NCBI RefSeq assembly: GCF_013201705.1
Contig: NZ_CP053837.1
Coordinates: forward strand, 1,984,001-2,048,000
Source of the DNA: Aliarcobacter faecis
Lineage (GTDB): Bacteria; Campylobacterota; Campylobacteria; Campylobacterales; Arcobacteraceae
Length of the DNA: 64,000 nt
Reading direction: 5' to 3'
How positions within the stretch are numbered: the first letter of the stretch is position 1; the number at the start of each line of letters is the position of its first letter. The notes under the pieces are model-generated. The model saw nothing but the letters and a program-made list of their open reading frames with translations, did not search any database and was not told the DNA's origin. Position numbers and translations under genes: made by a program. This document shows, one piece after another, positions 52,487 through 53,609 of this stretch.

Positions 52487-53083
52487 TCAGTAAATTAATA
52501 CCTTTACAACTTCATCTTTATATTTTAGAAGGATCTCTTTAACTCTTTCTTGCCAAGCCGTTCCAAAAATTTCAAGTTCCTCTTTTGAAGCTACTCCTTG
52601 CAAACCTTTTTGCATTAACTTAGCATCAAAACCACTTAGAGTTACATTAGATAAATCATACATTATTTCAACACTTTTATTATTATCAAGCCTTGTAAAT
52701 TTTATATCACCTCTTATAGAAGATTCATATTTAAGTAGATTATTTCTAAAATATTGACCTTGTAAGCCTTTAAATCCATCTTCCTCTTTTGCACCAGTTA
52801 TAAAAGAAGCAACATTTGCTAAAACTCCTGTTGTTCCAAAGCTCTTTACATCTCTTAATTCAACTTTAATTTCACCACGAACTGGCAATTCATCTTTATA
52901 TAGTTCTTTTAACGCCTTTAAAGTCATAAGGTATGCACCAGCAACAGTAGGGCAAGAGTGACCACTAAGCTTCACCACATCTTTAAATGTATATGTAAAA
53001 TCTTCATCAACACCTAAAAATTGACCCAATTTATCTTTTAAAACTATACTTTCAACACTATCAAAAAAATCTATATTTTTCAT
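52487..53083 (-). CDS. FmdE-like protein
   Basis: The frame starts at GTG 53089, but the ATG at 53083 is spaced properly from AAAGGG, giving 198 residues. KDVVKLSGHSCPTVAGAYLMTLKAL holds a G-H-S-C-P segment (Gly41-His42-Ser43-Cys44-Pro45) like the HGHxCPG metal-binding motif of FmdE (formylmethanofuran dehydrogenase subunit E family), though the leading His of HGH is Ser here. ELRDVKSFGTTGVLANVASFITGA follows. No second zinc-ribbon region is present. FmdE relatives in bacteria are of unknown, often molybdenum-linked, role. Upstream are a Crp/Fnr box and a strong hairpin, so redox or oxygen control is likely. The assignment rests on one motif. Confidence 0.6.
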   Translation of the reverse strand: MKNIDFFDSVESIVLKDKLGQFLGVDEDFTYTFKDVVKLSGHSCPTVAGAYLMTLKALKELYKDELPVRGEIKVELRDVKSFGTTGVLANVASFITGAKEEDGFKGLQGQYFRNNLLKYESSIRGDIKFTRLDNNKSVEIMYDLSNVTLSGFDAKLMQKGLQGVASKEELEIFGTAWQERVKEILLKYKDEVVKVLIY

Positions 53084-53112
53084 TTGCACCCTTTATATAA
53101 AATTTGTAAGTA

Positions 53113-53190
53113 ACTAAAAATTTGCTAGATGGGTTTATTAGGAGAGATTCAGGGGCAAACCCATCTTAGCAAGCTCTTTTTACAGAGTGA
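53113..53190 (-). ncRNA. candidate small RNA or leader with C/U-rich loop
   Basis: Reading the minus strand from about 53190 there is first a small CTCT/AGAG hairpin, then a long stem of 15 pairs with one bulge, TTGCTAAGATGGGTTT (53172-53157) against AAACCCATCTAGCAA (53136-53122), closing a 20-nt loop that contains CCCC and CTCTCCT, then ATTTTTAG. Stem plus T run makes an intrinsic terminator, and the promoter elements in front would give a transcript of about 75 nt. The CTCTCCT loop is complementary to Shine-Dalgarno sequences, as in C/U-loop RNAs such as H. pylori RepG. It could instead be an acpS terminator or a leader regulating the FmdE-like gene 30 nt on. Confidence 0.45.
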
Positions 53191-53193
53191 GGC

Positions 53194-53204
53194 ATTTTAT
53201 TATA
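53194..53204 (-). promoter_or_regulatory. -10 elements of the hairpin transcript
   Basis: On the minus strand TATAATAAAAT holds two overlapping candidates, TATAAT (53204-53199) and TAAAAT (53199-53194). The start site would be near 53193 or 53188. These put the upstream Crp/Fnr box centre (53228.5) at about -36 or -41, close to the -41.5 of class II activation. Confidence 0.5.
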
Positions 53205-53221
53205 TAAAAAATTACTATACA

Positions 53222-53235
53222 TTGATTTATATCAA
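53222..53235 (-). promoter_or_regulatory. Crp/Fnr-family box TTGAT-N4-ATCAA
   Basis: TTGATTTATATCAA is a perfect match to the E. coli FNR consensus half-sites TTGAT and ATCAA with a 4-nt spacer. It starts 5 bases after the acpS stop and precedes a -10 element and the hairpin transcript. It is the only full match I found in the window's intergenic gaps. Confidence 0.65.
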
Positions 53236-53239
53236 AGTG

Positions 53240-53593
53240 CTACTCTTTTATTATATTTACAACAACTGCTATAGCAAAGCCACCATCATGGGTTATACTT
53301 AAAGATGATTTTTTTATTTTAAATTTTTTCTTTAGTTTTTTACTATATTTTATCTTTGGAGCATTGTTTTTATCTTTTTTTATTTTTATATCATAAAAAC
53401 TACAAACTTCTCCAATTCCTGTTCCTATTGCCTTACTAGCAGCTTCCTTTGCTGCCCAAAATCCAGCTGCTGTTTGAGTAGATTTTATAAAAATCTTTTC
53501 ATCTTCATTTAGAAATCTATCATAAAACTTATCCCCAAACTTTTCATACAACTTTTTTACCCTATCTATGCCTACTATATCTATACCTATCAT
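53240..53593 (-). CDS. acpS: holo-[acyl-carrier-protein] synthase
   Basis: Attaches 4'-phosphopantetheine to apo-ACP. The 117-residue protein starts MIGIDIVGIDRVKKLYEKFGDKFYDRFLNEDE, and FWAAKEAASKAIGTGIGE carries the Mg-binding Glu and catalytic Lys; SITHDGGFAIAVVV closes the fold. Start behind AGATAGG. Only 28 bp separate it from the divergent permease ATG, so their promoters overlap. Confidence 0.95.
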   Translation of the reverse strand: MIGIDIVGIDRVKKLYEKFGDKFYDRFLNEDEKIFIKSTQTAAGFWAAKEAASKAIGTGIGEVCSFYDIKIKKDKNNAPKIKYSKKLKKKFKIKKSSLSITHDGGFAIAVVVNIIKE

Positions 53594-53609
53594 TTAAACC
53601 TATCTTTTG

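Follow-up and report, generated by a model that had tools for sequence, protein, structure and literature searches.

A conserved hairpin element behind a predicted class II Crp/Fnr-type promoter, probably a new small regulatory RNA of Aliarcobacter

In the 64,000-nucleotide stretch of the Aliarcobacter faecis genome analysed here (the window; contig NZ_CP053837.1, positions 1,984,001 to 2,048,000), the DNA between acpS and an FmdE-like gene carries a real conserved RNA element, as all 11 loci have the box, the spacer has diverged far more than the -10 region and the stem covaries. We read the element as a probable new small regulatory RNA, since it has been kept in one species without the gene that usually follows it. 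From its layout, and with somewhat better than even confidence, we would describe it as an activator-driven, trans-acting small RNA with a C/U-rich antisense loop. The features are the following:

53240..53593, minus strand: acpS (PF01648), the conserved upstream neighbour
53222..53235, minus strand: Crp/Fnr-type box TTGATATAAATCAA, TTGATA-N4-TCAA in 11/11 element genomes and in a locus of another genus (L011)
53194..53199, minus strand: -10 region TAAAAT, 22 nt past the box; 12/12 loci have TA(A/G)A(A/C)T at this spacing
53174..53187, minus strand: hairpin 1, CTCT-GTAAAA-AGAG, where the RNA is predicted to begin, with a putative +1 near 53187
53122..53172, minus strand: hairpin 2, 15 stem pairs interrupted by one bulge and capped by a C/U-rich loop of 20 nt, seen in the fold and by covariation
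53137-53156, minus strand: loop of hairpin 2, GCCCCTGAATCTCTCCTAAT, 20 nt
53137-53163: a micro-ORF, NTG-(G/D)-x-P-x-N-x-S-stop, preceded at about 9 nt by AGAG
53114..53121, minus strand: U-rich tail ATTTTTAG (5 U of 8), a possible terminator tail
52487..53083, minus strand: FmdE-like ORF (PF02663), probably under the same promoter

An earlier note on this DNA had read a box, a -10 region, a CTCT/AGAG hairpin, a 15-pair stem with a 20-nt C/U-rich loop and a tail on the minus strand, and all of these are present there. The two arms of hairpin 2 (53172-53157 and 53136-53122) pair with a single bulged A, and the region 53110-53200 has a folding energy of -23.1 kcal/mol (z -4.73), a value as low being reached by 0/200 shuffles. 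A generic promoter and terminator scan, which requires a -35 hexamer and a terminator loop of 3-8, included neither the promoter nor the terminator of the element among its calls. A plus-strand reading, with a GGA-containing loop, was set aside because the box and -10 promoter matches the minus strand; among the stem pairs, a single G-U pair is informative about the strand.

The stem of hairpin 2 is supported by its variation among genomes. In an alignment of 9 distinct rows, 93.5% of the cells pair, changes on both sides occur in 9/14 modelled pairs, and covariation scores 0.631, compared with 0.234 in shuffled alignments (as high in 0/500; controls with slid partners gave at most 0.095), this alignment being fitted to the covariance model and therefore biased toward it. 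A MAFFT alignment of 8 rows (7 distinct), with the structure named on it, gave a score of 0.571 against 0.226. The number of further pair types was unremarkable in both alignments (14 versus 13.4 in the fitted one and 11 versus 10.7 in the MAFFT one). The loop behaves differently from the stem: its CCCC and UCUCC are invariant in 11/11 genomes while the stem letters turn over, and in most genomes UAA follows UCUCC. The structured RNA with a C/U-rich loop that had been proposed is thus conserved. Hairpin 1 has no covariation support, because its arms are identical in 10/11 genomes; it is weak in the remaining one (G027, locus L050), and in L005-L008 the minimum-energy fold has an extension of the main stem in its place. 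The proposed terminator function of hairpin 2 fits the majority of loci, where the 8 nt past the stem include 5 or more U (8/11 genomes), and does not fit the tails of the other 3/11, which have 3-4 U.

In the class II layout of Crp/Fnr promoters, a palindromic box is centred near -41.5 and followed 22 nt later by the -10 region. This spacing of 22 nt is constant in the 11 element genomes and in L011, and 12/12 loci therefore present a class II arrangement, as had been suggested for the window; the promoter has a class II layout, with a putative start site and predicted activator binding. With this spacing, the start of the RNA would fall at hairpin 1. Over 10 rows (L007 omitted), identity is 50% in the spacer, 88% in the -10 region and 55% in the 20 nt preceding the box, and it reaches 100% and 93% in the two half-sites, values that are not independent because the search pattern TTGATA-N4-TCAA fixes most half-site letters. 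All 11 loci, which were located through fmdE or the stem with the box unused, carry the box at the same place. Taken alone the box is not significant, since 0.44 are expected by chance per 64 kb and the genome has 18 such sites, versus 14 for the reversed control. At the level of sequence, the element has the promoter of its own that a stand-alone small RNA gene calls for.

A search for FmdE in 60 relatives gave matches in 37, including close relatives (73-85% identity) in 9 further members of the genus (L002-L010) and one of 57% identity in another genus (L011). The DNA upstream of fmdE contains the box, the -10 region, the stem and the loop in 10/10 genus members, the window included. A lack of conservation of the box and stem between acpS and the FmdE-like gene in sister species, which had been named as grounds for abandoning the element, is therefore not what we observe. 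A covariance model built on 8 of the 10 genus loci and searched against 104 family genomes returned 13 matches, namely the 10 genus loci, G027, L052 and L053; the last two were dropped as chance matches, as by eye they lie inside other genes and have neither box nor loop. A second model, applied to 398 genomes of the order with 12 candidates scored per genome, gave at least 13 matches, of which 8 were already known and 5 (L216-L220) were dropped for overlapping open reading frames; the matches listed include none from G002, G005 or G011. Another 22 covariance matches, at E 0.11-1, were left outside these counts. By eye, the element is absent from the 330 nt after acpS at 15 loci, including those of G008 and G023, and it was unmatched in the plasmid records. 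On the matches obtained, the element is restricted to one Aliarcobacter group, in which acpS precedes it in all 11 genomes of the genus, and it may have a wider spread in diverged form.

We propose that an activator of the Crp/Fnr family would bind the box and switch on the class II promoter, which would produce a short RNA starting near 53187. From predicted start to stem end this RNA would measure 61-70 nt in the 11 genomes, plus the tail. Its stem would display the unpaired C/U-rich loop (CCCC...UCUCC, then mostly UAA) as an antisense seed, most likely acting on other mRNAs at purine-rich ribosome-binding sites or in G-rich leaders, and part of the transcription would probably continue into fmdE in the genomes that have it. 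We infer the production of the RNA, its ends, its action in trans, the type of target and the signal, which may be low oxygen, NO or something else. With its defined loop and activator-type promoter, such a conserved RNA offers a testable entry to the post-transcriptional control of respiration or of nitrogen-oxide responses in Aliarcobacter, and the comparison of species can, in this case, tell a small RNA from a gene leader.

That distinction matters because fmdE lies downstream of the element in 10/11 genomes, an arrangement also expected of a cis-acting leader, in which the hairpin, as part of the fmdE 5' UTR, would set termination or translation through its loop, a bound factor or a pairing RNA. 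We regard such a leader as possible but doubtful. It would agree with the U-poor tails of 3/11 genomes, with the generic scan of the window, in which no promoter-like site appears between the stem and fmdE, and with L010, where the ribosome-binding site of fmdE comes immediately past the stem. It would also agree with L011, in which the same box stands directly ahead of fmdE with its 22 nt of spacer and its -10 region but without a hairpin, so that serving fmdE may have been the original role of the promoter. Pairing of the loop with the fmdE ribosome-binding site reaches -9.4 to -10.5 kcal/mol in L001, L002, L004 and L009, equalled by 0.5-8.5% of 200 mononucleotide shuffles; in the other 6/10 genomes, however, it is weaker (-1.4 to -6.3 kcal/mol; L005 was partly tested, with its leader truncated at an early ATG) in spite of a conserved loop. 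An argument against a leader is G027 (99% complete), where a search for fmdE gave no match and the box, the -10 region and an unbroken 13-pair stem are retained, the element adjoining a convergent gene that we take to be ruvX-like. As G027 keeps the element without fmdE, a function of the RNA itself is favoured, and the comparison speaks more for a small RNA that stands alone, with probable read-through into fmdE, than for a leader and nothing else. A stand-alone small RNA gene would be independent of its neighbour; the element persists without fmdE in one genome of the 11 and has fmdE beside it in the other 10. The fmdE-free case is a single genome, and the loss may be recent there; third-position identity of acpS between G027 and G003 is 0.75, which gives no date for it, and an acpS tree of 13/23 loci (10 were missed by the motif) is mostly unresolved and does not date the absence either. 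Tentatively, the RNA might be an Hfq-free small RNA born in the fmdE leader, with one promoter making both an anti-Shine-Dalgarno RNA and a read-through fmdE mRNA, and might have outlived the gene once. Structured mRNA leaders, such as attenuators and riboswitch-like elements, likewise have a conserved hairpin between promoter and gene, as seen in 10/11 genomes; they differ from the element, which is kept without the gene in G027 and consists of a single long stem that carries a conserved loop and has no match to a known leader family.

Other explanations account for part of these observations. The conserved loop on a stem whose letters change freely could belong to a decoy, an RNA that titrates a protein bound to the loop; we have no candidate for this protein, an antisense seed would look like a C/U loop too, and we consider a decoy improbable. 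Even less probable is control of fmdE by translation of a leader peptide from the micro-ORF that runs through stem and loop. Its frame can be read, from an ATG, GTG or TTG start, in 9/11 genomes, with the stop missing in L002 and a length different by one codon in L004 and G027, but it is broken in L008 and L010, the third positions of the loop codons barely vary and the stem codons change the amino acid. We give just as little weight to a plain acpS terminator standing next to an unrelated promoter: the hairpin does follow acpS in all 11 genomes, but the box and the -10 region lie between the two, 3/11 tails are poor in U, and a terminator would have no use for a conserved loop.

As to the regulator, the genome of the window (G000) encodes two HTH_Crp_2 proteins, found by a search for PF13545 as the only Crp-family model, and both have the Fnr-type ET-x-SR in the recognition helix, as judged from an alignment for one protein and from the sequence for the second. 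The N-terminal cysteine cluster of the Fe-S protein Fnr is missing from both. The suggestion that the RNA is oxygen-responsive therefore finds no support in the HTH_Crp_2 proteins found, and a small RNA controlled by an Fe-S Fnr would call for a regulator with that cluster. The surroundings of 15 of the 18 genomic box sites were viewed. One perfect box (L102, G000:C1:42274-42287) is found where a Crp/Fnr gene begins, immediately ahead of a TATAAT, and would fit autoregulation of this gene. Another (L103) is upstream of what we take to be Rieske and cytochrome b genes, and a third (L110) is near a gene that is possibly, by our assignment, a cytochrome gene. A respiratory or nitrogen-oxide signal is plausible. 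If what the activator senses is NO or nitrogen oxides, and not oxygen, the RNA would be a post-transcriptional arm of the Aliarcobacter response to them. In C. jejuni, according to one published report, no FNR orthologue was found (PMC11334517).

In the searches for partners and targets, no Hfq was found in 6/6 genomes, the same search being positive in 5/14 control genomes. The E. coli RNA FnrS works with Hfq and differs from the element in this respect. The loop had been suggested as a guide to targets, and we searched for anti-loop patterns. Allowing one mismatch, TTAGGAGAGAT had more matches than its reversed control in every one of the 11 genomes, among the matches listed, and TTAGGAGA-N-ATG, for 6 of the 11 genomes and likewise among the matches listed, was above its reversed control in each; purine-rich ribosome-binding sites together with coding words would be expected to give the same excess. 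A strict 18-mer with 3 mismatches had 39 matches in the 11 genomes, 9 of which are the elements, and the remaining 30 are at control level (31). A site shared by 8 genomes lies, in the two cases inspected, in the 5' coding part of what is presumably a photolyase-like gene. Another, present in 4 genomes (2 inspected; L204, L206), matches the anti-loop sequence at 15/18 positions; it falls on the ribosome-binding site of a gene that we take to be nirF-like, where this overlaps the end of a presumably nirJ-like gene, and, overlapping a coding end, it may be a chance match. Neither the photolyase-like nor the nirF-like site is claimed as a target, because both are conserved protein-coding words. 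The 30 exact anti-loop sites listed include the element itself twice and 24 sites in open frames of more than 100 codons, 4 of which are also 12-13 nt ahead of an ORF start, at four different genes. No target stands out in the loose, strict or exact anti-loop searches.

The element was also compared with known RNAs. Rfam gave three weak matches in 52900-53600 at E up to 10, none of them over the element, and 0 matches in the whole window at the gathering threshold; no covariance model thus assigns it to FnrS or to another Rfam family. FnrS, as described in one report (PMC8139620), resembles it as a short RNA under an Fnr-type site; the differences are the lack of an Rfam match here and HTH_Crp_2 proteins without the Fnr N-terminal cysteines. 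The H. pylori small RNA RepG, from the same phylum, is a precedent in that its C/U-rich terminator loop is the pairing region (PMC8295292); here the C/U-rich loop is present in 11/11 genomes and a U-rich tail in 8/11. RepG pairs with a homopolymeric G-repeat in the tlpB leader and is located between hp1043 and hp1044, whereas for the element, which lies between acpS and fmdE and is known from sequence alone, no single target emerges. Judged by titles and abstract openings, none of the papers listed by the literature searches describes a small RNA at the acpS/fmdE site. The intergenic regions of Arcobacter sp. L were screened for structured RNAs in a study that gave no names to the majority of its novel ones (PMC6429828), and the element may be listed there without a name; PMC3847290 concerns C. 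jejuni RNAs.

FmdE itself had no solved-structure relative at E 0.1 and no NCBIfam family. A second FmdE-like group (L012-L030, about 46-52% identity) has other surroundings, and the upstream DNA examined contains, by eye, neither box nor hairpin. One relative (G009) carries two copies of acpS, at G009:C1:255329-255676 and 385030-385377.
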